Shown here in pieces: positions 36,880-46,704 of a stretch of DNA of 59,948 nucleotides (within the stretch, counting starts at the first letter, position 1; every line of letters starts with the position of its first letter). Both the position numbers and the translations under genes were made by a program. The notes beneath the pieces were generated by a model. The model saw only the letters and a program-made list of their open reading frames with translations, made no database searches and was not told where the DNA came from. This DNA comes from Frankia nepalensis (GTDB lineage: Bacteria > Actinomycetota > Actinomycetes > Frankiales > Frankiaceae), in NCBI RefSeq assembly GCF_016786325.1, contig NZ_JADWYU010000138.1, forward strand, positions 1-59,948. The letters are read 5' to 3'.

Positions 36880-38322
36880 TCAGGCGATGGAGATCGACTT
36901 GATGTCGAGGTAGCCTTCCAGGCCCTCGCGGCCGAGTTCGCGGCCGTATCCGCTGGACTTGACCCCGCCGAAGGGCGCCGCCGGGTCCATGGAGTACCCC
37001 TGGTTCACTCCGAAGGTCCCGGCCCGGACCTGGCGGGCGACGTCCAGCCCGCGCGCCGTGTCCGCGGTGAACACCGAGCCGGCGAGGCCGTATTCGGTGT
37101 CGTTCGCGATGCGGACGGCCTCGTTCTGGTCGTGGTAGGGGATGACGGCGAGCACCGGGCCGAAGATCTCCTCGCGGGCGACGGTCATGGCGGGGTCGAC
37201 GGCGCTGAAGACGGTCGGTCGCACGTACCAGCCTCGATCGAGCCCGGCGGGCAGGTCGGTGCCCCCGACGACGAGCCTGGCGCCCTCGCGCACGCCGGCG
37301 TCGATGTAGCGCCGTACCCGTTCCTGCTGGCGGCGCGTCACCAGCGGGCCCATCTCGGTGGCTGGGTCGGCGGGGTCGGCGACCCTGATGGCCGACAGGG
37401 CCGCCCCGAGGGCGTCGGCGTGGTCGTCGGCGCGGGCCGCCGGTACGAGCACGCGGGTGAGGGCGTTGCAGATCTGGCCGGCCATGCCCATGCCGGAGAG
37501 GCGGACGGCCGCGGCGACGGCCGCCGGGTCGGCGTCGTCGAGCGCGATCGCCGCGGACTTCCCGCCGAGCTCGAGGCTGACCCTGGTGAGGTTGCGGGCG
37601 CAGGCCGCCGCGACCTGCCGGCCGGCGGCCGTCGAGCCGGTGAACGACACCTTGTCGATGCCCGGGTGGGCGACGAGGTGGGCGCTCGTGTCCCGGTCCG
37701 CCGGGACGACGTTCACCACGCCGGGCGGCAGCCCGGCCTGCTCGAACAGGGCCGCGAGCACCAGCGCGTCGAGCGGTGACTCGGGCGCTGGCTTGAGGAC
37801 GACCGCGCACCCCGCCAGCAGAGCGGGGATGACCTTGGTGATGGTCAGGAACTGCGGCATGTTCCACGGGATCACGGCGGCGACGACGCCGACAGGCTCC
37901 TTGCGCAGCAGCACGTCCCGGCCGTAGACGCCCGGCCGGTCCTCCTGCCACGCGTAGTTCCGCGCGATGTCGGCCAGCGCGTTCATCGTCGAGAGTGCCA
38001 GGCCCACCTGGGCGCGCCGGGCGAAGGAGATCGGCGCGCCGAGCTCGGCGGTGATCACGTCGGCCAGTTCGTCGCGGCGTTCGCCGTAGAGGCCGGCGAG
38101 CCGCCGAACCGTCTCGATCCGCTCGGCCGGGTCGAGACGCGGCCAGGGTCCCTCGTCGAAGGCACGGCGCGCGGCCGCGACCGCGTCGTCGACGTCCGGC
38201 GGTCCCGCCGCCGCGACCCGGGCGATCGGTTCCTCCGTGTGCGGGGAGATCACCTCGATGGCCTGGTCGGTGCGCGGGGCGACCCATCGGCCTCCGATGA
38301 ACAGGGTGCCGTGCTCGTCCAT
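36880..38322 (-). CDS. NAD(P)-dependent aldehyde dehydrogenase
   Basis: This 480-residue ALDH superfamily enzyme oxidises an aldehyde to the acid. The Rossmann and tunnel motifs are present: VIPWNMPQFLTITKVIPALLAG, the catalytic Glu in LELGGKSAAIAL, the nucleophile Cys in GMAGQICNALTRVLVP and EEIFGPVLAVIPY. The gene is transcribed divergently from the first Rieske oxygenase gene, and the intergenic region holds two 20-bp palindromes that probably bind the nearby TetR protein. It is therefore likely to oxidise an aldehyde released by the Rieske or TauD oxygenases of the cluster, or by the benzoylformate-decarboxylase-like enzyme. Confidence 0.95.
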   Translation of the reverse strand: MDEHGTLFIGGRWVAPRTDQAIEVISPHTEEPIARVAAAGPPDVDDAVAAARRAFDEGPWPRLDPAERIETVRRLAGLYGERRDELADVITAELGAPISFARRAQVGLALSTMNALADIARNYAWQEDRPGVYGRDVLLRKEPVGVVAAVIPWNMPQFLTITKVIPALLAGCAVVLKPAPESPLDALVLAALFEQAGLPPGVVNVVPADRDTSAHLVAHPGIDKVSFTGSTAAGRQVAAACARNLTRVSLELGGKSAAIALDDADPAAVAAAVRLSGMGMAGQICNALTRVLVPAARADDHADALGAALSAIRVADPADPATEMGPLVTRRQQERVRRYIDAGVREGARLVVGGTDLPAGLDRGWYVRPTVFSAVDPAMTVAREEIFGPVLAVIPYHDQNEAVRIANDTEYGLAGSVFTADTARGLDVARQVRAGTFGVNQGYSMDPAAPFGGVKSSGYGRELGREGLEGYLDIKSISIA

Positions 38323-38493
38323 GAGCGCTCCTGGGCGTCGATGCTCGGCCCGCTCCGGGTCGGAGCGGGTGCGCGCGGCGGTCGTGTCCGTGCCGCCGTG
38401 TCCGTGCCTGTGCGTCCGTGCCGGCGGGCCCGTGTCGGCGGCCCGCGCGGGCCGACGGCCGCCGAAGCCGCCTTGCGCGGGCCGCGGAAGCCA

Positions 38494-38536
38494 TGTTAGT
38501 CACTTGGGGAACAAGCTGTTAGTCAGTCGGAGAACG
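38494..38536. promoter_or_regulatory. TetR operator pair, ALDH/Rieske-1 promoter
   Basis: Two 20-bp sites, 38494-38513 and 38517-38536, both begin TGTTAGTCA and end GAACA or GAACG. They fit the imperfect palindrome TGTTnnTCAnnTGAnnAACA found also at 41769-41809. The start-to-start spacing is 23 bp. They are shared by the divergent ALDH and Rieske-1 genes. Confidence 0.75.
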
Positions 38537-38577
38537 GTTCGACCGGGATCGAGGGCGACCTCGACAGGAGGATGGTC

Positions 38578-39864
38578 ATGGCGCGACTCGCCACACCGCC
38601 GGCCAGCTGGACGACGCGCTACCCGGAGCTGGGCACCGGCCTGGTGTCCTACGAGGACTCGATCTCGCCGGAGTTCTACGAGCTCGAACGCGAGGCGATC
38701 TTCCGCCGGGCCTGGCTGAACGTGGGCCGCGTGGAGCAGCTGCCCCGCAAGGGCAGCTACTTCACCAAGGAGCTCGCGGTCGCCAGGACGTCGCTGCTCC
38801 TCACGCGGGACCTGGACGGCCAGGTGCGGGCCTTTCACAACGTGTGCCGCCACCGGGGCAACAAGCTGGTCTGGGACCACACCCCGCGCAGCGAGACCAG
38901 CGGCGTGTGCCGCCAGTTCATGTGCAAGTACCACGGCTGGCGGTACGGGCTCGACGGGCAGCTGAAGTTCGTGCTGCAGGAGGAGGAGTTCTTCGACTTC
39001 GACAAGGCCGACTTCCCGCTGGTGTCGGTCCACTGCGAGGTCTGGGAGGGCTTCATCTTCGTCAACCTGGCCGACGAACCCAGCCAGTCGCTGCGCGAGT
39101 TCCTCGGGCCGATGGTGCTCGGTCTGGAGGGCTACCCGTTCCACCTCTGCGGCGAGCGGTTCGCGTTCAAGGCGCAGATCCTCAGCAACTGGAAGATCTT
39201 CCTGGACGCCTTCCAGGAGTACTACCACGCCTCGGTGCTGCACTCGCAGCAGCAGGTCCCGTCCCTGCGGAGTTTCGAGACCGGCTACAAGGTCCCGCAC
39301 TTCCAGATCGACGGGCCGCACCGGCTGATCAGCACGGGCGGCTGGAAGGGCACGCCACGCCACCTGCTGCCGCCGGAGCAAATGTACCCGATCGAGCCCG
39401 CGACCCAGGCCGGCCTCATGGGCCCGTGGGAACGGCCCGACATCCCCGAGCTCGACCCCGCCAACCTGCCCGCCGGGCTCAACCCGGGCAACCTCCAGCC
39501 GTGGTCGATCTCGAACTTCCAGATCTTCCCGAACTTCGTGATCCTCGTGTACGAGCGCGGCTGGTACCTCACGTACCAGTACTGGCCGACGTCCGCCGGC
39601 ACCCATGACTGGGAGATGTCGTACTACTTCCCGCCGGCGCGTACCGCCAGCGAGCGCATCCGCCACGAGGTGACCGCCGTCGTGTCGAAGGAGGCCGCCC
39701 TCCAGGACGCCGCCACCCTCGACGGCACCCAACAGGGCCTGGAGTCCAGGGTGATCGACAAGTACCCGCTGTCCGACCAGGAGATCACCGTCCGGCACCT
39801 GCACAAGGCGGTCGGCGACTGGGTTCAGGCCTACCTGCGAGACGGGAAGGGGACCCGCGCGTGA
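38578..39864 (+). CDS. Rieske-type ring-hydroxylating oxygenase, alpha subunit (copy 1)
   Basis: This 428-residue terminal oxygenase has Rieske ligands CRH (near residue 90) and CKYHGW separated by 23 residues, longer than the usual 15-17, with an extra Cys in GVCRQFMC. Mononuclear iron is bound by YHASVLH (H-x4-H) after NWKIFLDAFQEY, and by a late Asp in the LQDAATLDGTQQG region. No beta subunit, ferredoxin or reductase is encoded nearby, so electrons must come from elsewhere. ATG 38578 was chosen because AGGAGG lies 6 bases before it; ATG 38572 is too close. The stop overlaps the next gene by 4 bases. The substrate is unknown. Confidence 0.93.
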   Translation: MARLATPPASWTTRYPELGTGLVSYEDSISPEFYELEREAIFRRAWLNVGRVEQLPRKGSYFTKELAVARTSLLLTRDLDGQVRAFHNVCRHRGNKLVWDHTPRSETSGVCRQFMCKYHGWRYGLDGQLKFVLQEEEFFDFDKADFPLVSVHCEVWEGFIFVNLADEPSQSLREFLGPMVLGLEGYPFHLCGERFAFKAQILSNWKIFLDAFQEYYHASVLHSQQQVPSLRSFETGYKVPHFQIDGPHRLISTGGWKGTPRHLLPPEQMYPIEPATQAGLMGPWERPDIPELDPANLPAGLNPGNLQPWSISNFQIFPNFVILVYERGWYLTYQYWPTSAGTHDWEMSYYFPPARTASERIRHEVTAVVSKEAALQDAATLDGTQQGLESRVIDKYPLSDQEITVRHLHKAVGDWVQAYLRDGKGTRA

Positions 39865-40196
39865 GCGACCGGATGCTGCCGGAGGAGTTCGCCGATCTGG
39901 AGCCCTTCGCCGCGAGGTGGTGCATCGCGACCGAGGCGGGCCGGTACGCCGAACGGCTGAACAGCACGATGGCGGAGCTGGAGGCGTTCTACGGCGCGGC
40001 TCACCCGCGCGTCGGCGCGGCCATGGCCTACCTGGACGGCTTCGAGCTGTCGGACCTGCCCGAGCCGCAGCTGAACCTGCTCCACCTCGTGTACTCGCTG
40101 ATCATGGTTTCCCTGCCGGTAGAGGTCTGGCACCAGCCAAGGGTCATCGACAGCGGCACCGCCTACTTCGACCGCTACCTGGAGCCCGTGCCGTGA
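39861..40196 (+). CDS. Uncharacterised ~112-residue Rieske-associated protein (copy A)
   Basis: This is an all-helical, Trp/Tyr-rich 111-residue protein: LPEEFADLEPFAARWCIAT, then PRVGAAMAYLDGFELSDLPEP, LNLLHLVYSLIMVSLPVEVW and the end YFDRYLEPVP. It is homologous over its full length to the protein at 44765-45112, which also follows a Rieske gene with a 4-base overlap. There is no signal peptide, metal motif or known domain that I recognise. Its fixed position suggests a small subunit, chaperone or electron-transfer helper of the oxygenase. Its GTG start lies in the Rieske stop, and its own stop overlaps the TauD start. Confidence 0.85.
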   Translation: MSDRMLPEEFADLEPFAARWCIATEAGRYAERLNSTMAELEAFYGAAHPRVGAAMAYLDGFELSDLPEPQLNLLHLVYSLIMVSLPVEVWHQPRVIDSGTAYFDRYLEPVP

Positions 40197-41038
40197 CCGC
40201 GACGATCACCTGTGAACCCCTGGCCGCGACCGTCGGCGCCGCGGTGAGCGGCGTCGACGCCGACCAGCTCGCCAAGGACGACACGATCGCCGCGTCGGTC
40301 CTCGAGGCGCTGGAGCGGTACGGCGTGCTCGTCTTTCGCGGCCTGAACCTCGACCCGGACAACCAGATCGCCTTCTGCCGCCGGCTCGGCGAGATCGACT
40401 ACGAGTACGGCCACCACCCGGTGGCCGGCATCTACCGGGTGACCCTGGACAGGTCGAAGAACTCCTCGGCCGACTACCTCAAGGCCACCTTCCACTGGCA
40501 CATGGACGGGTGCATGCCGCTGCACGGCGAGCCGCCGCAGAAGGCGACCATCCTCAGCGCCAAGCAGGTGGCGGCGTCCGGCGGGGAGACGGAGTTCGCC
40601 AGCACCTACGCCGGCCACGACGCGCTGTCCGACGACGAGAAGGAGCGGTTCGCCGCGCTGCGGGTCGTGCACACGTTCGAGGCGTCCCAGCGCACGGTCT
40701 ACCCGGACCCGACCCCGGAGCAGCTGGCGCGGTGGCGCGCCCGGCCGAGCTCGACGCACCCCCTGGTCTGGACGCGGCGCACCGGCCGCAGGTCGCTGGT
40801 CATCGGCGCGCACGCCAGCCACGTCGTCGGGATGGATCTCGAGGAGGGCCGGGCGCTGCTCGGGGGGCTGCTCGACCGCGCGACCAGGCCCGAGCGCGCC
40901 TACCGCCACCACTGGTCGGTGGGGGACACGGTCATCTGGGACAACACCGGCGTCGTGCATCGCGCGGCGCCCTACGACCCGAGCTCGCCGCGGGAGCTGC
41001 TGCGCACGACGGTGTTCGGCGACGAGCCGATCCGTTGA
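40193..41038 (+). CDS. TauD/TfdA family Fe(II)/2-oxoglutarate dioxygenase
   Basis: This 281-residue dioxygenase has the iron triad HxD in ATFHWHMDGCMPLHGEPP (His103, Asp105) and the distal His in WDNTGVVHRAAPYDP, with a 2-oxoglutarate-binding Arg in ELLRTTVFGDEP. Such enzymes hydroxylate taurine, 2,4-D, carnitine precursors or alkyl sulfates, often cleaving C-S, C-O or C-N bonds. The GTG start overlaps the upstream stop (GTGA), so it is the third gene of a translationally coupled set. The module may attack one substrate in two oxidative steps. It is convergent with the TetR gene, 18 bases apart. Confidence 0.93.
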   Translation: MTATITCEPLAATVGAAVSGVDADQLAKDDTIAASVLEALERYGVLVFRGLNLDPDNQIAFCRRLGEIDYEYGHHPVAGIYRVTLDRSKNSSADYLKATFHWHMDGCMPLHGEPPQKATILSAKQVAASGGETEFASTYAGHDALSDDEKERFAALRVVHTFEASQRTVYPDPTPEQLARWRARPSSTHPLVWTRRTGRRSLVIGAHASHVVGMDLEEGRALLGGLLDRATRPERAYRHHWSVGDTVIWDNTGVVHRAAPYDPSSPRELLRTTVFGDEPIR

Positions 41039-41056
41039 TCGCCGGGCGGGCCGGTC

Positions 41057-41677
41057 CTACCCGGCCGGGCTGGCGAGGGCGTCCCGCGCCGGGCGGCGGT
41101 CGCCCTCCAGGGCGCGGATCTCACGCTCGATCACCGCCACCAGCTCCGCGTGGCCGATGTCGACGTCGAACGCGTCCTCGATGTGCAGGAACCGGGAGAC
41201 CGCCGCGATGACGAGAATCAGCGACGCCGGCGGCCACCGGCGCGGGTCGAGTCCGTAGCCGGTCAGCACGTCCGAGAGCGCCTCGAGCTGCAGGGTCCGG
41301 AACTTCCGCGAGTACGCGCCGATTTCTGCCCGTATCGCCTTGCGGTGATTGGCCAGCGCGATGAACTCCATCGTCAGCGCGTTGCTGGAGAAGTCCTGGG
41401 TCAGCTCCCACAGGGCCCACAACGGCTGCGGCGACCGCAACACCTGCCGCAGCCGGGCCAGGCTGCGCTCGGCGCCCCGCCGGAACAGCTCGACGAACAA
41501 GCCGTCCATCGTGCCGAAGTAGTAGTAGACGAGCCCGTTGTTGACGCCCGCCCGCTGGGCCAGCCGGCGGGTGGTGACCGCGGCGTAGCCCTCCTCGAGC
41601 ATCAGGGCCTCGGTGGCGTCGAGCAGCGCCGTGCGGGTGATCGACTCGTCGACGACGCTCCGCCGTGCCGGCGCCAT
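41057..41677 (-). CDS. TetR family regulator of the catabolic cluster
   Basis: This 206-residue repressor has a helix-turn-helix ALMLEEGYAAVTTRRLAQRAGVNNGLVYYYFG and a C-terminal ligand domain with EFIALANHRKAIRAEIGAYS. ATG 41677 is preferred because GGAGG lies 7 bases before it; the methionine two codons earlier directly abuts GGAGG. Its own promoter region carries two 20-bp palindromes matching those in the ALDH/Rieske-1 promoter, which implies autoregulation and control of both operons. The ligand is presumably a substrate or CoA ester of the pathway. Confidence 0.93.
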   Translation of the reverse strand: MAPARRSVVDESITRTALLDATEALMLEEGYAAVTTRRLAQRAGVNNGLVYYYFGTMDGLFVELFRRGAERSLARLRQVLRSPQPLWALWELTQDFSSNALTMEFIALANHRKAIRAEIGAYSRKFRTLQLEALSDVLTGYGLDPRRWPPASLILVIAAVSRFLHIEDAFDVDIGHAELVAVIEREIRALEGDRRPARDALASPAG

Positions 41678-41768
41678 GTCCATCCTCCCGCGGCTCCCAG
41701 GGCCTGATCCCGCCCCTAGTTTCGCGCCGAGCGCCCAGGGGAGGGCGCTTGCCTCCGGCCGAACCCCA

Positions 41769-41809
41769 TGTTAGTCATGTGAAGAACAGTGTTAGTCGAC
41801 TGACGAACA
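41769..41809. promoter_or_regulatory. TetR operator pair, tetR/SDR promoter
   Basis: Site 41769-41788 fits the full palindrome TGTTnnTCAnnTGAnnAACA. Site 41790-41809 reads TGTTAGTCGACTGACGAACA (GTTnGTC-N4-GACnAAC). The start-to-start spacing is 21 bp. The two sites lie between the divergent tetR and short-chain dehydrogenase genes. Confidence 0.8.
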
Positions 41810-41952
41810 CCCTGCTGGAACAGGAGAACGCGTCGACGGGCCGCGCCAGCGTGATGAGGACCACGACACCGGCGGGTCGGCGCGCGGCGCGTCCCGCGTG
41901 AGCCGGTGACCGACCCCGTCGAAGTGATCCACGAATGAGGAAGGACACAGCG

Positions 41953-42717
41953 ATGGCGCGTAGCAGGACGCCGCGCTCCCGGGTGGCGGTCGTCACCGGC
42001 GGGGCGTCGGGCATCGGTGAGGCCACCTGCCATCACCTGGCCGAACGCGGCCACCGGATCGCGGTGCTCGACCTCGACACGGCGGGCGTGGAACGGGTGG
42101 TCAAGGAGCTGCGCGCCAACGGGGCGCGGGCGCTCGGCCTCACCGCCGACGTCACGGACCGCGGCGCCCTCGACGCCGCCTTCGCCGAGACCCGCGCGGC
42201 GCTCGGGCCGACCGAGATCCTGGTGACCAGCGCCGGCCTCGTCGCCTTCGAGGAGTTCGACCAGATCACGCTCGAGCACTGGGACCGGGTGCTCGCCGTC
42301 AACCTCACCGGCACCTTCCACTGCTGCCAGGCAGCCCTGCCCGACATGGTCGCGGCCCGCTGGGGCCGCATCGTCACGATCTCGTCGTCCAGCGCCCAGC
42401 GGGGCTCACCGAAGATGGCGCACTACGCGGCCGCCAAGGGCGGCGTGATGGTGCTGACCAAGTCGTTGGCCCGCGCCTACGCCTCCCACGGCATCACGGC
42501 CAACTGCATACCGCCGTCGGGCATCGAGACGCCGATGCAGCACCGGGACCAGGCCGCCGGGCACCTGCCGCCCAACGAGGTCATGGCCAGGACGATTCCG
42601 CTGGGCCATCTCGGGACCCCGGACGACATCGCGGCCGCGGCCGCGTTCCTCGCGTCCGAGGAGGCCGGCTTCATCACCGGGCAGGTCCTGGGCGTCAACG
42701 GCGGGCAGGTGCTGTGA
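41953..42717 (+). CDS. Short-chain dehydrogenase/reductase
   Basis: This 254-residue classical SDR has the cofactor motif VVTGGASGIGEATC, the NNAG-equivalent VTSAGLVAFEEF, the catalytic Ser in TISSSSAQRGS and the Tyr-Lys pair in HYAAAKGGV. An Asp after beta-2 (LDLDTAG) suggests NAD(H). ATG 41953 follows GAGGAAGGA; an upstream ATG at 41935 lacks this. It is divergent from the TetR gene with a double operator between, and is the first gene of the operon running to the EthD-like gene. It may oxidise an alcohol intermediate of the pathway. Confidence 0.94.
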   Translation: MARSRTPRSRVAVVTGGASGIGEATCHHLAERGHRIAVLDLDTAGVERVVKELRANGARALGLTADVTDRGALDAAFAETRAALGPTEILVTSAGLVAFEEFDQITLEHWDRVLAVNLTGTFHCCQAALPDMVAARWGRIVTISSSSAQRGSPKMAHYAAAKGGVMVLTKSLARAYASHGITANCIPPSGIETPMQHRDQAAGHLPPNEVMARTIPLGHLGTPDDIAAAAAFLASEEAGFITGQVLGVNGGQVL

Positions 42718-42790: not shown

Positions 42791-43540
42791 GTGACCAGCG
42801 CCGTGGCGCCGCGCATCGGCCCGTTGCCGGCGGCCGAGTGGACCGCGGAGGACCGCGCGCTGATGCGCGGCCACCTGACCCGCGCCGAGCGCTACCTGTC
42901 CGGCGCCGCCGACGCGCCGCCGATGCCGCCGATCCTGGGCCTGCTGGCCCGTCATGTCCGGGTCGGCGGACCGTGGCTGGCCTTCAGCGGCCGGCTGCTG
43001 GAGGACGGCACCCTGCGGCCACGGGACCGGGAGCTGCTGATCCTGCGCGTCGGCGCGCGGACCCGCTGCCGCTACCTGTGGGCCGAACACGTCCGCATCG
43101 GCCGGGAGACCGGTCTCACCGACGCCGACCTGGCCGCGGTCGCCACCGGCACCGCGGTCGCCGCCGGTGCCGAGGCCGCGGCTGGTGCCGAGGCCGCCTC
43201 CGGCACCGCGGTCGCCGCCGGCGCGGAGGCCGGCGGGTGGGCCGGACGCGACCGCGACCTGCTGGCGGCCGTCGACCAGCTGGTGGACACCCACGTCGTC
43301 GACGACCCGACCTGGGCGCGCCTGGCCGAGGAGTTCGACGAGCGGGAGCTCCTCGAGCTGATGTTCGTCGTCGGCAGCTACCTGTGCCTGGCCATGGTGC
43401 TCAACAGCGTCGGGCTGGCGCCCCCGGCCGAACCCGACGACGCACCGGTTCCCTGGCCGGGCCCGGCCGCGAGTCCGTCCCCCGTCGACCCCCAGAAGGA
43501 GGAGAACCATGCCGCGTTTCCCGAAACCGCCGGAAGGTAG
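42791..43540 (+). CDS. Carboxymuconolactone decarboxylase (AhpD-like) family protein
   Basis: This 249-residue protein has the core CMD motif RDRELLILRVGARTRCRYLWAEHVRIG (E...C...H). Unlike redox-active AhpD, it has one cysteine rather than CxxC, with Tyr/Leu between it and His, as in true CMD-type members. Between the two halves sits a ~30-residue Ala/Gly-rich insertion (TAVAAGAEAAAGAEAASG) of low complexity. The C-terminal ~30 residues overlap the start of the second Rieske gene by 32 bases. It may decarboxylate or isomerise a ring-cleavage lactone, or act as an oxidoreductase. Confidence 0.85.
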   Translation: MTSAVAPRIGPLPAAEWTAEDRALMRGHLTRAERYLSGAADAPPMPPILGLLARHVRVGGPWLAFSGRLLEDGTLRPRDRELLILRVGARTRCRYLWAEHVRIGRETGLTDADLAAVATGTAVAAGAEAAAGAEAASGTAVAAGAEAGGWAGRDRDLLAAVDQLVDTHVVDDPTWARLAEEFDERELLELMFVVGSYLCLAMVLNSVGLAPPAEPDDAPVPWPGPAASPSPVDPQKEENHAAFPETAGR

Positions 43541-44768
43541 CTGGACCGAGCACTACCCGGGCCTGGGCACCGGGCCGGTGTCCTACGAGGACTCGATCTC
43601 GCCCGAGTACTTCGAGCGCGAGAAGGAGGCGATCTTCAAGCGGGCGTGGCTGAACGTCGGACGGGTCGAGCAGTTGCCACGCATGGGCAGCTACTTCACC
43701 AAGGACATCAAGGCCGCCCACGCGTCGATCGTCGTCGTGCGCGACAAGGCGGGCCAGGTGCGGGCCTTCCACAACATGTGCCGCCACCGCGGCAACAAGC
43801 TCGTCTGGACCGACGACCCGAAGAAGGAAAGCCAGGGCGTCTGCCGCCAGTTCGCCTGCAAGTACCACGGCTGGCGCTATGACCTCGACGGCTCGCTGAC
43901 GTTCATCCAGCAGGAGGGCGAGTTCTTCGACGTCGACAAGAGCCAGTGGGGGCTGGCGCCAGTGCACTGCGACGTCTGGGCCGGGTTCATCTTCGTGAAC
44001 TTCGCCCACGAGCCGAAGCAGCCGCTGCGCGAGTTCCTCGGGCCGATGGTGACCGACCTGGAGGGCTACCCGTTCGAGAGGATGACCGCCCGGTTCGGGT
44101 ACAGCACCACGGTCGGGGCGAACTGGAAGCTCTTCATGGACGCGTTCGCGGAGTTCTACCACGCGCCCGTCCTGCACGGGAACCAGTCGCCGGAGAAGTA
44201 CTCGAAGGCCGCCCTGCAGGCCGGTTTCGAGGCGCCGCATTACCAGATCGAGGAACCGCACCGGCTCGTGAGCACGTCCGGTGTCCGGTTCTGGGAGATG
44301 GGCGCGGACATGATCAAGCCGATGGAGGCGCTGACCCGCGGTGGGCTGTTCGGCCCGTGGGACAAGGCCGACCTCGGCGAGATGCCGAAGGGCGTCAACC
44401 CGGCGAAGTGCGACCCCTGGGGGCTGGACTCGTTCCAGCTGTTCCCGAACTTCGTGATCCTCATCTGGAGCCAGGGCTGGTACCTCACCTACCACTACTG
44501 GCCGACCTCGCACAACACGCACGTCTTCGAGGGCAACGTCTACTTCCTGCCGGCCACGAACATCCGTGACCGGATCGCGCAGGAGATGTCGGCGGTAACG
44601 TTCAAGGAGTTCGCGCTACAGGACGCGAACACGCTCGAAGCCACCCAGATGATGCTCGAGACCCGGTACGTCGACCGCTTCCTGCTGAACGACCAGGAGA
44701 TCCTCTGCCGTCACCTCCACAAGGTCGTGGGCGACTGGGTCAACGACTACGAGGGAGCCCGCCGATGA
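43509..44768 (+). CDS. Rieske-type ring-hydroxylating oxygenase, alpha subunit (copy 2)
   Basis: This 419-residue protein is homologous to the Rieske oxygenase of 38.6 kb throughout. CRHRGNKLVW and CKYHGWRYDLDG carry the cluster ligands, again with a 23-residue gap and an extra GVCRQF cysteine. NWKLFMDAFAEFYHAPVLH supplies the iron histidines. Differences are concentrated in the substrate-pocket half (EKYSKAALQAG, RFWEMGADMIKPM), so a related but different substrate is likely. ATG 43509 follows AAGGAGG and lies within the upstream gene. The stop overlaps the next gene by 4 bases. No electron-transfer partners are nearby. Confidence 0.93.
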   Translation: MPRFPKPPEGSWTEHYPGLGTGPVSYEDSISPEYFEREKEAIFKRAWLNVGRVEQLPRMGSYFTKDIKAAHASIVVVRDKAGQVRAFHNMCRHRGNKLVWTDDPKKESQGVCRQFACKYHGWRYDLDGSLTFIQQEGEFFDVDKSQWGLAPVHCDVWAGFIFVNFAHEPKQPLREFLGPMVTDLEGYPFERMTARFGYSTTVGANWKLFMDAFAEFYHAPVLHGNQSPEKYSKAALQAGFEAPHYQIEEPHRLVSTSGVRFWEMGADMIKPMEALTRGGLFGPWDKADLGEMPKGVNPAKCDPWGLDSFQLFPNFVILIWSQGWYLTYHYWPTSHNTHVFEGNVYFLPATNIRDRIAQEMSAVTFKEFALQDANTLEATQMMLETRYVDRFLLNDQEILCRHLHKVVGDWVNDYEGARR

Positions 44769-45112
44769 GCGCCGAGGGAGTGAACACCCTGCTGCCGGCG
44801 GAGTTCGCCGATCTCGAACCGTTCGCCGCGAAGTGGTGCCTGGCGACGGAGCCGGAGCGGTACGGCACGCGGCTGGCCAGCACGACCGAGGAGATGCAGG
44901 TCTTCTACGACGCGGTCACCCCGCGGGCCGAGGCCGCGATGGCGTACCTGTCGGAGCTGCCGTACGACGCGCTGCCCGACGACGCGCTGAACCTGCTGTA
45001 CCTGCTCTACTCGATGATCCAGGCGTCGTTCCCCGCCGAGATCTGGCGGCAGCCGAGGGTCCCGGACACGGGCGCCACGAGCTTCGACTGCTTCATCGAG
45101 CCGGTGCCGTGA
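44765..45112 (+). CDS. Uncharacterised ~112-residue Rieske-associated protein (copy B)
   Basis: This 115-residue homologue of the protein at 39861-40196 shares EFADLEPFAA.WC.AT, the LNLLYLLYSMI segment, EIW.QPRV and the end EPVP. It again overlaps the Rieske gene before (ATGA) and the next gene after (GTGA). The repeated coupling points to a dedicated partner of this Rieske subfamily. No cysteine or histidine pattern for metal binding is conserved between copies apart from one Trp-Cys (RWC/KWC). Confidence 0.85.
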   Translation: MSAEGVNTLLPAEFADLEPFAAKWCLATEPERYGTRLASTTEEMQVFYDAVTPRAEAAMAYLSELPYDALPDDALNLLYLLYSMIQASFPAEIWRQPRVPDTGATSFDCFIEPVP

Positions 45113-46353
45113 CCGCGCCGACCGTCCTACGCGCCGCCCGGTGGCTGGATGTCGACGCCGACGAGGCCCGGTCGCCGGCGGTGATCGTGGTGGAAGGAAA
45201 CCGCGTCGTCGCGGTGAACCCCGCCGGGGTCCCCGCCGGCGCGACGGAGATCGACCTGGGTGACGTGACGCTGCTGCCCGGGCTGATGGACATGGAGCTC
45301 AACCTCCTCATCGGCGGCCCGGAGACGCCGACGGGCCTGCCGCTGCCGATGCACGGAGTCCAGGACGACCCGGCGTACCGTACGCTGCGCGCGACCATCA
45401 ACGCCCGCAAGACCCTGCTCGCGGGGTTCACGACGGTCCGCAACCTCGGCCTGATGGTCAAGACGGGCGGCTACCTGCTCGACGTCGCGCTGCAACGCGC
45501 CATCGACCAGGGATGGGTGGAAGGCCCGCGCATCGTCCCCGCGGGGCACGCCGTCACTCCCTACGGCGGCCACCTCGACCCCACGGTGTTCCAACGGCTG
45601 GCACCGGGGATCATGCCGCTGTCCGTCGGCGAGGGGATCGCCAACGGCGTCGACCAGGTTCGCCACTGCGTGCGTTACCAGATCCGCCATGGCGCCAAGG
45701 TGATCAAGGTGTCGGCGTCGGGTGGCGTGATGTCGCACAGCACCGGCCCCGGCGCCCAGCAGTACTCCGACGAGGAACTGGCCGCGATCGCCGACGAGGC
45801 GCACCGGGCCGACATCCGCGTCGCCGCGCACGCGGTGGGGGACCGGGCGGTGCGGGCCTGCGTCGAGGCCGGGATCGACTGCGTCGAGCACGGCTTCCTC
45901 GCCAGCGACGAGACGCTGAAGCTGATGGCCGAACGCGGCACGTTCCTGGTGTCCACCACCTACCTGACCGACGCGATGGACGTCGCGCGGGCGGCACCGG
46001 AGCTCCAGGCGAAGGCCGCCGTGGTCTTTCCCCAGGCCAGGGCGATGCTGCCGAAGGCGATCGCCGCCGGCGTCCGGATCGCCTGCGGCACCGACGCCCC
46101 CGCCATCCCCCACGGCGACAACGCCAAGGAGCTGGCCGCGCTGGTGGCGCGCGGCATGACCCCGACCCAGGCCCTGCGGGCGGCGACCGTCACCAGCGCG
46201 GAGCTGATCGAGCGGGACCACGAGCTCGGCCGGCTTCGCGAGGGCTTCCTCGCGGACGTCATCGCCGTCCCCGGCGACCCCACCCAGGACATCACCGTCA
46301 CCCAGGACGTCCGGTTCGTCATGAAGGACGGCCACATCCACAAGAACGCCTGA
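45109..46353 (+). CDS. Amidohydrolase family protein with altered metal site
   Basis: This 414-residue TIM-barrel protein of the imidazolonepropionase / Xaa-Pro-dipeptidase-like amidohydrolase branch is flanked by beta-sandwich strands. Later ligands are present: Lys in GAKVIKVSASGGV, His in VAAHAVGD, His in CVEHGFL and the catalytic Asp in CGTDAPAIPHGDN. However, the first-strand HxH motif (usually GxxDxHxH) reads LPGLMDMELNLLIGG, with Glu and Asn in place of the two histidines. The enzyme may use one metal or none. GTG 45109 overlaps the previous stop. The position mirrors TauD in the first module. Confidence 0.88.
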   Translation: MTAPTVLRAARWLDVDADEARSPAVIVVEGNRVVAVNPAGVPAGATEIDLGDVTLLPGLMDMELNLLIGGPETPTGLPLPMHGVQDDPAYRTLRATINARKTLLAGFTTVRNLGLMVKTGGYLLDVALQRAIDQGWVEGPRIVPAGHAVTPYGGHLDPTVFQRLAPGIMPLSVGEGIANGVDQVRHCVRYQIRHGAKVIKVSASGGVMSHSTGPGAQQYSDEELAAIADEAHRADIRVAAHAVGDRAVRACVEAGIDCVEHGFLASDETLKLMAERGTFLVSTTYLTDAMDVARAAPELQAKAAVVFPQARAMLPKAIAAGVRIACGTDAPAIPHGDNAKELAALVARGMTPTQALRAATVTSAELIERDHELGRLREGFLADVIAVPGDPTQDITVTQDVRFVMKDGHIHKNA

Positions 46354-46392: not shown

Positions 46393-46704
46393 ATGACCAG
46401 CGGCGTGCTCATCGTCGAATCGCGCCCCGCCTCGCCCGAGGAGGCGGCGGCCTACCACGACTGGTACGACAACACGCACCTGCCCGAAATCCTGAAGGTC
46501 GAGGGCTTCGTCTCCGCCCGCCGCCTGGAATCGCTCGATGGCGACACCTTCCTCGTCATCTACGAGATCGACGGCGACGTCGAGACGGCGAAGGCGGCGC
46601 TGGGCCAGGCACAGGCCTCGGGAACGATGTCCCGGCCGCAAGGCGTAGAGCTCACCCCGCCGCCGATCGTGCGCTACTTCCGGTACCTCGGCCCCGCCAG
46701 CTGA
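46393..46704 (+). CDS. EthD-like (dimeric alpha/beta barrel) protein
   Basis: This 103-residue protein begins with LIVESRPASPEEAAAYHDWYDNTHLPEIL, the EthD/DUF4286 hallmark with a conserved His, followed by RRLESLDGDTFLVIYEID. Such ferredoxin-like dimers are found as small helpers or lyases in degradation clusters, such as for ether or polyketide substrates. ATG 46393 follows AAGGAG. It is the last gene of the operon, before a GC hairpin (46734-46755). Confidence 0.82.
   Translation: MTSGVLIVESRPASPEEAAAYHDWYDNTHLPEILKVEGFVSARRLESLDGDTFLVIYEIDGDVETAKAALGQAQASGTMSRPQGVELTPPPIVRYFRYLGPAS

Follow-up and report, generated by a model that had tools for sequence, protein, structure and literature searches.

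Introduction

As described in the available parts of the sources, the TetR-family regulator QacR binds a single 28-bp site cooperatively as a pair of dimers (PMC4150764), and KstR binds the 14-bp palindrome TnnAACnnGTTnnA as a single dimer, with 16 and 31 further instances of the motif in two genomes (PMC1995591). In the tetA-tetR system, dimeric TetR represses both promoters of one divergent region that holds two palindromic operators (PMC3511530). BkaR (Rv2506/MSMEG_4718) binds its motif as a dimer, and two copies, palindromes with GTTAnT half-sites, lie between the regulator gene and a divergent catabolic operon; both were bound in electrophoretic mobility shift assays, one less tightly, and BkaR is autoregulated, adjacent to its targets and has few of them (PMC3920632). 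Here we compare with these systems four 20-bp sites of Frankia nepalensis, which lie in two pairs within a catabolic gene cluster that also encodes a TetR-family protein. The cluster is part of a stretch of 59,948 nucleotides (contig NZ_JADWYU010000138.1 of assembly GCF_016786325.1), called the window below. A search of the literature on Frankiaceae TetRs, Rieske/TauD clusters and TetR operators, covering titles and abstract openings of the top-listed, mostly open-access papers, returned nothing on this regulator or cluster.

The four sites are very probably the on/off switch by which the neighbouring TetR controls the cluster of breakdown enzymes. An earlier reading of the window (the original prediction) had described the sites and assigned them to this TetR; its observation is real and its core inference very probably right. 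Comparison of sequences makes it highly likely that the local TetR binds each site as one dimer and keeps both catabolic arms, and probably its own gene, repressed until a metabolite releases it. We link TetR to these sites because they are unique genome-wide, conserved phylogenetically and co-occur with this TetR, and because related sites occur in a second actinobacterial family and beside some paralogous regulators.

Four sites of one pattern in two promoter regions

Promoter A separates an aldehyde dehydrogenase (ALDH) gene from the gene of a first Rieske oxygenase alpha subunit (Rieske-1) and holds the putative operators A1 (TGTTAGTCACTTGGGGAACA, 38494..38513) and A2 (TGTTAGTCAGTCGGAGAACG, 38517..38536). 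Promoter B separates tetR from a short-chain dehydrogenase (SDR) gene and holds B1 (TGTTAGTCATGTGAAGAACA, 41769..41788) and B2 (TGTTAGTCGACTGACGAACA, 41790..41809). We call A1 and B1 the primary and A2 and B2 the second copies. All four 20-mers stand where the original prediction had placed them, on the + strand and in one orientation, and all are intergenic, so that the paired placement in two promoter regions held, as did the start spacings of 23 bp (A) and 21 bp (B). The shared ends were also recovered, in the form of a common pattern, TGTTAGTC-N7-GAACR, that every copy matches exactly. The wording 'matching palindromes', however, was overstated: the copies do share letters, but their dyad is imperfect, with 6, 4, 7 and 7 of 10 pairs in A1, A2, B1 and B2. 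Because they are weak palindromes, the consensus first proposed, TGTTnnTCAnnTGAnnAACA, is exact for one copy only (1, 3, 0 and 1 mismatches across the four sites).

We asked how often such a pattern arises by chance. In 100 shuffles of the window, 0.00 matches to TGTTAGTCN7GAACR were expected, and none of 2,000 dinucleotide shuffles of both intergenic regions produced four copies with the same 8+4 letters in common. The genome searched comprises 10.73 Mb in 398 contigs and is 96.8% complete. It contains exactly four exact matches, all at these sites, and none at one mismatch; frequent occurrence of the motif away from promoters, which had been named as grounds for dropping the regulon, is thus not what the genome shows. 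At up to two mismatches there are 29 forward and 18 reverse matches (47, the four sites included), and the reversed control pattern gives 25 + 28 = 53, so the real pattern is no commoner. A genome-wide search for further regulon members therefore returned none at 0-1 mismatch, and matches at two mismatches are at background level.

A position weight matrix (PWM) trained on 35 sites of the window and its orthologues separated the sites from other positions. The four window sites score 27.1-38.6. Five second A copies with a spacing of 23 bp (window, G029, G033, G019 and G021) had been left out of training and still score 22.8-32.1, the window A2 at 32.1. Reversed sites aside, sites score at least 21.0 and the next best position in the window and the orthologous regions 12.1. 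Apart from reverse-strand readings of the sites, no further position in the window exceeds 7.6, which leaves the other promoters of the cluster without sites.

The sites co-occur with one TetR in the Frankiaceae

Matches to the TetR at E<=1e-20 were found in 17 of 35 Frankiaceae genomes. In 11 of these 35 (the window genome and ten others) the protein is 73-100% identical; the other six matching genomes hold only relatives of about 50% identity or less. All ten orthologous regions keep the order ALDH | Rieske1-small-TauD | TetR | SDR-CMD-Rieske2-small-amidohydrolase-small protein, as listed from tblastn matches above 60 bits, and four of them have an extra open reading frame (ORF) between TetR and SDR. 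The core GTTAGTCAYNYGNNGAAC has 23 matches in 11 of the 35 genomes (control, 0), and these are exactly the 11 that carry the TetR of at least 73% identity and the syntenic cluster. All 23 lie inside the same two intergenic regions; the search misses the A1 copy of G032, which has GAGC instead of GAAC. Across the 11 genomes, 16/20 columns of A1, 15/20 of B1, 10/20 of A2 and 1/20 of B2 are invariant; outside the sites, the aligned intergenic regions have 11/135 and 17/211 such columns.

This conservation spans three genera. It refutes the notion of a repeat that spread recently and has no regulatory role, as the common TGTTAGTC and GAAC of the four copies might suggest: in the 11 genomes these positions are conserved although the flanks have diverged, and we put the chance of this explanation at practically nil.

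We also searched from the motif alone. When 84,980 named genomes, a collection that may leave out records of the window's own or very near genomes, were scanned for the site pair, seven stretches came back, all from Frankiaceae: Parafrankia colletiae, Frankia sp. AiPa1, Frankia sp. AgB1.9 (two), Pseudofrankia asymbiotica, Pseudofrankia sp. BMG5.36 and Parafrankia sp. EUN1f. By tblastn, the same gene cluster is present at 7/7. A relaxed paired pattern matched only the window genome among 396 genomes of the phylum; this result is uninformative on diverged operators, because G064, a genome of the second family described below, was in the sample and was missed.

These distributions bear on whether a distant regulator or sigma factor recognizes the sites and TetR binds elsewhere. 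The asymmetry of the conserved core would fit such a factor. Against it, the genome has no further site at 0-1 mismatch, none was found outside the Frankiaceae in the scanned collections, co-occurrence with the window-type TetR is complete in the 35 genomes, and paired sites recur beside some paralogous TetRs. For a sigma factor, the box spacing, which varies from 18 to 23 bp, argues against a -35/-10 reading. We regard recognition by another factor as highly improbable.

Spacing and number of copies vary between orthologues

Promoter A has a start spacing of 18 bp in G008, G028, G030 and G032, 19 bp in G017 and G018, and 23 bp in five genomes, those whose second A copies are missing from the PWM training set. 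At promoter B the spacing is 20 bp in one genome, 21 bp in five and 22 bp in one; the second copy is thus kept in 7/11 orthologous promoters, and the four genomes with a single copy are those of genus g6. Fixed helical phasing is the expectation for tightly cooperative neighbouring dimers. It is not conserved here, because 18 and 23 bp are roughly half a turn of the helix apart. Since the copies are separate and their spacing differs between orthologues, we rejected both a QacR-like overlapping double dimer and a reading of TTAGTC and GAAC as the -35 and -10 boxes of a sigma factor.

The regulator

TetR (41057..41677, - strand) is the sole regulator among the ten proteins of the cluster that were scanned against Pfam. 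Its TetR_N domain (PF00440) is recognized with E=1.1e-15 and 57.5 bits against a cut-off of 24, which places it in the TetR family, and none of the NCBIfam regulator models reaches its cut-off. We rejected two specific identities: BetI (TIGR03384, 39.5 bits against a cut-off of 201.3) and KstR (26.3 bits against 280), the latter also because there are four sites genome-wide, of other sequence. By sequence, its nearest PDB entry is 5d18 (E=7.5e-11), which bears the title Rv0302 of M. tuberculosis. The recognition helix, VNNGLVYYYF, is identical in 11/11 orthologues.

The structure prediction rests on six sequences only and adds little. The model has ten helices with a mean predicted local distance difference test score (pLDDT) of 71.8 and a predicted TM-score of 0.61; the helix-turn-helix reaches about 90 and the ligand domain is less confident. 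The 50 PDB matches listed by Foldseek are all TetR-type or otherwise named regulators (one is titled multidrug-binding protein) and include BkaR (6yj2). Among these listed matches the best E value is 1.5e-6, query TM-scores are 0.43-0.57 and root-mean-square deviations 5.8-10.5. The predicted all-helical, TetR-like fold is right, but its superposition is loose.

A second family places the site behind a promoter

With the TetR of G064 as query, 301 genomes of a second actinobacterial family (f4) yielded 13 loci at E<=1e-60. In G064 all pathway genes run in one direction, divergent from tetR, and an SDR match lies within a 3.6-kb stretch at 11/13 loci; at L116 the SDR is about 1.4 kb off. At 12/13 loci TTGAC(A/G) is followed by TAT(A)NN, behind which comes a site led by TTAATC or TTAACC, with 0-2 bases in between where counted. 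The count covers stretches that match TTGAC-N-TAT[AG] and also contain TTAA.C or TTTAA; the remaining locus, L107, has no usable intergenic region, as its match starts inside a gene. In the five loci counted, 18 bp separate TTGAC(A/G) from TAT(A)NN.

The sites are TTAATC..GATTAA-like and mostly tandem. A second copy follows 16-18 bp further in 11/12 loci (degenerate in L108-L110), and L111 has a single copy. Twelve copies from six loci pair at 4 to 7 of 8 positions. The strict palindrome TTAATCRNNYGRTTAA occurs in 6/13 genomes at 12 places, 11 of them at the cluster promoter; controls gave two matches, in one genome. The site TTAATCACTTGATTAA of L116 aligns ungapped with TTAGTCACTTGGGGAA of the window, with 12/16 letters the same and on the same axis, which speaks for an operator with dyad symmetry even though the Frankiaceae sites are asymmetric. 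Separately, one genome of this family carries an extra TTAATCACATGATTAA site away from the cluster (L118, G653:C12:58202-58217), possibly a further regulon member there.

The second-family alignment supports a blocking position for the bound protein, and this bears on whether TetR binds the sites as an activator rather than a repressor. Activator-dependent promoters are often off the sigma-70 consensus, as are those of the window. An activator of the TetR family is known, AtrA (PMC3511530). In the second family, however, a TTGACA/TATA-type promoter precedes the operators, so that a protein bound to them would obstruct it, and most investigated members of the family are repressors, as far as the available part of the review goes (PMC3511530). 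Activation by TetR is very improbable.

Proposed mechanism and the direction of regulation

From these comparisons we infer repression, autorepression and ligand release, as well as binding itself, its stoichiometry and what each copy of a pair does. One TetR dimer would sit on each 20-bp site, with the dyad axis between the 10th and 11th bases. Bound TetR would block RNA polymerase toward Rieske-1 and SDR, and probably also toward ALDH and tetR, until a substrate or intermediate of the pathway releases it. The primary copy of each pair would do most of the work; the second, dispensable and loosely spaced, may raise occupancy. The literature support for each step comes from relatives of this regulator, in the available parts of the papers. 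The regulon originally proposed is supported as one local regulon with operators in exactly two promoters, on the grounds of conservation, co-occurrence and the second family; binding, repression of both arms and, in particular, autorepression are predicted from sequence.

Both pairs are preceded by a possible -35 element on the + strand: TTGCGC at 38473..38478, 17 bp before TTAGTC, and TTGCCT at 41749..41754, 16 bp before TTAGTC. The sigma-70 scan missed both. The CTTG of the first is ungapped in 11/11 genomes, and CTTGCC is found in 7/11 at the second. Beyond the operators, a block AGTnTnnC(G)CC at 41718-41728, between operator B and tetR, is largely conserved in the 11 genomes and is perhaps tetR's own promoter.

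Alternatively, TetR may bind the sites and regulate only the rightward operons (Rieske-1 and SDR), sparing ALDH and tetR. All sites are oriented toward the rightward genes, with CTTG upstream in 11/11 (A) and 7/11 (B) genomes, and the second-family operator directly follows the rightward -10. In the window, tetR lies 91 bp from operator B, with the separate conserved AGT.T block nearer its start. However, only 43-54 bp separate the ALDH start from the operator in G028, G029 and G030, so that the ALDH promoter should abut or overlap the operator, and at two second-family loci, L109 and L110, about 50 bp lie between the operator and the tetR start. We consider rightward-only control unlikely and favour repression of both arms.

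Several observations weigh against this preferred reading. The conserved site in the Frankiaceae is asymmetric: its most conserved letters are TTAGTC on the left and GAAC on the right, each position kept in 33-35 of 35 sites. B2 is poorly conserved, and the second B copy is missing in 4/11 genomes. Because the whole cluster is inherited together, co-occurrence cannot fully single out TetR from the rest of it. No consensus sigma-70 promoter was found in either intergenic region of the window. The tetR-SDR gap, 275 bp between likely starts, exceeds the 200 bp within which, in the available part of the source, divergent regulation is dependable in Streptomyces (PMC3511530); the case is therefore built on site conservation rather than on gap length. 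In the second family several copies pair at only 4-5 of 8 positions, and the strict palindrome has no match in 7/13 genomes. Finally, 6/8 paralogue regions of the window genome lack a pair of the kind described next.

Paralogous regulators in the same genome

The window genome encodes eight other TetRs that match at E<=1e-20. With 89 of 186 candidates scored, it thus has at least nine such TetRs, and several relatives are likewise rich in them. Two paralogues, of 47% and 42% identity and with the helices LNPGLVHYYF and VNPGLVHYYF, have upstream tandem pairs 21 bp apart: TATTGGTCAAGCGTCCAACT-T-TATTGGACGCTTGTCTAACA and TGCTGGACCAACGTCCAACG-T-TGTTGGACGTATGTCTAACG, at L057:4770-4810 (C31) and L058:8619-8659 (C376). 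The form of these sites is YTGGNC-N4-GTCYAAC, and both genes have TauD and CMD neighbours and one an SDR neighbour. A relaxed version of the pattern matches four places in the 35 genomes, with one control match; all four lie about 260-345 bases upstream of a TetR paralogue, G028 and G032 being represented too. A stricter pair pattern found one own-genome copy only. De novo alignment upstream of paralogues of the KPAL, TPAL and TPQL helix groups gave no convincing operator.

Read from the alignments rather than from a statistical test, helices and half-sites fall into three sets: N-N-G-L-V-Y with TTAGTC/GAAC, N-[PSA]-[AG]-L-V with TTAATC/GATTAA, and N-P-G-L-V-H with YTGGNC/GTCYAA. It is conceivable, if somewhat doubtful, that an actinobacterial TetR repressor subfamily regulates double-Rieske/TauD clusters through pairs of complete operators, with half-sites co-evolving with the recognition helix and spacing drifting over 16-23 bp. 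If so, the two dimers would work independently of each other and of helical phase, and an uncharacterized oxygenolytic pathway would be encoded by the clusters.

Genes of the cluster

Likely starts of Rieske-1, tetR and SDR were read from Shine-Dalgarno positions, that of tetR also from orthologous N-termini. The tetR start so read is 41677, as first proposed; the ORF list has the further ATG at 41683. On the left of promoter A lies ALDH (36880..38322, - strand; Pfam Aldedh). To its right, on the + strand, follow Rieske-1 (38578..39864; Rieske and Ring_hydroxyl_A), whose likely start is 41 bp from the end of A2, a 111-aa helical protein (39861..40196; no Pfam family) and a TauD/TfdA-type dioxygenase (40193..41038; TauD). 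Right of promoter B, also on the + strand, are SDR (41953..42717, 41935 in the ORF list; adh_short_C2), a carboxymuconolactone decarboxylase (CMD)-family protein (42791..43540; CMD), a second Rieske alpha subunit (43509..44768; Rieske and Ring_hydroxyl_A), a 115-aa protein (44765..45112; no Pfam family) and an amidohydrolase (45106..46353; Amidohydro_1). The last conserved gene encodes a small protein (46393..46704), named 'EthD' by eye only, with tblastn matches in 10/10 orthologous regions.

The 111-aa and 115-aa proteins are paralogues (55% identity), and relatives of them stand directly behind each Rieske alpha gene in the window and in 10/10 orthologous regions; G064 also has two copies of a small protein of this type. 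The model of this type is mainly helical (mean pLDDT 81.3). For the 111-aa protein no significant match was obtained by family (Pfam, E 0.097), sequence (PDB, E 0.098) or fold (E 5.6). These proteins are possibly dedicated partner subunits of the Rieske alpha subunits.

We further noticed that the end of the tetR-SDR gap (41906-41938) appears to hold what is left of an electron-transfer gene, its final codons (VTDPVEVIHE-stop), as compared at loci L050, L051, L052, L053 and L054. In G017 and G018 the gap contains an ORF for an oxidoreductase with a C-terminal 2Fe-2S ferredoxin-like domain, only the ferredoxin-like part is present in G019 and G021, and G028 has a broken piece. In L109 and L110 the operon likewise begins with a ferredoxin-like ORF. 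These domains were named by eye.

Comparison with known systems

The cluster offers a concrete predicted operator for a Frankiaceae double-Rieske catabolic cluster, which could serve as a reporter for substrate screening. The family alignment also amounts to a small natural experiment in how TetR operators and recognition helices change jointly, and informs how little the spacing of tandem operators is constrained.

Set against described systems, as far as the available parts of the sources go, the 'QacR/KstR-type' analogy of the original prediction is not borne out, since the two sites of a pair are separate and their spacing varies among orthologues. QacR is similar in being of the TetR family with more than one dimer per operator region, but it uses one 28-bp site, whereas here two complete sites have a start spacing of 18-23 bp (16-18 bp in the second family, where read). 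KstR resembles the window regulator as an actinobacterial, self-repressing TetR-family repressor whose conserved palindrome partly covers a putative -10, but it acts as a single dimer at many sites, unlike the four sites in one cluster found here.

The closest precedents are the two operators of the tetA-tetR region, named tetO1 and tetO2, and mycobacterial BkaR. The tetO1/tetO2 operators differ in being 15 bp long, in serving an efflux target and in lying in one promoter region; the window has two promoter regions, a catabolic cluster, variable spacing and, in four genomes, a single B copy. The window resembles BkaR in having two separate sites per promoter region and the left half GTTAGT in all four copies. 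The BkaR core GTTA(N)T(N4)A(N)TAAC (16 bp) is two bp narrower than GTTAGTC-N4-GNNGAAC of the window, and the right half is GNNGAAC in the Frankiaceae versus AnTAAC in BkaR. BkaR further differs in controlling branched-chain keto-acid genes, and the protein similarity is limited to E=1.1e-4 over residues 7-85 (4g12/6yj2). The Frankiaceae switch is thus a narrowly distributed new example of an already known kind of regulation.

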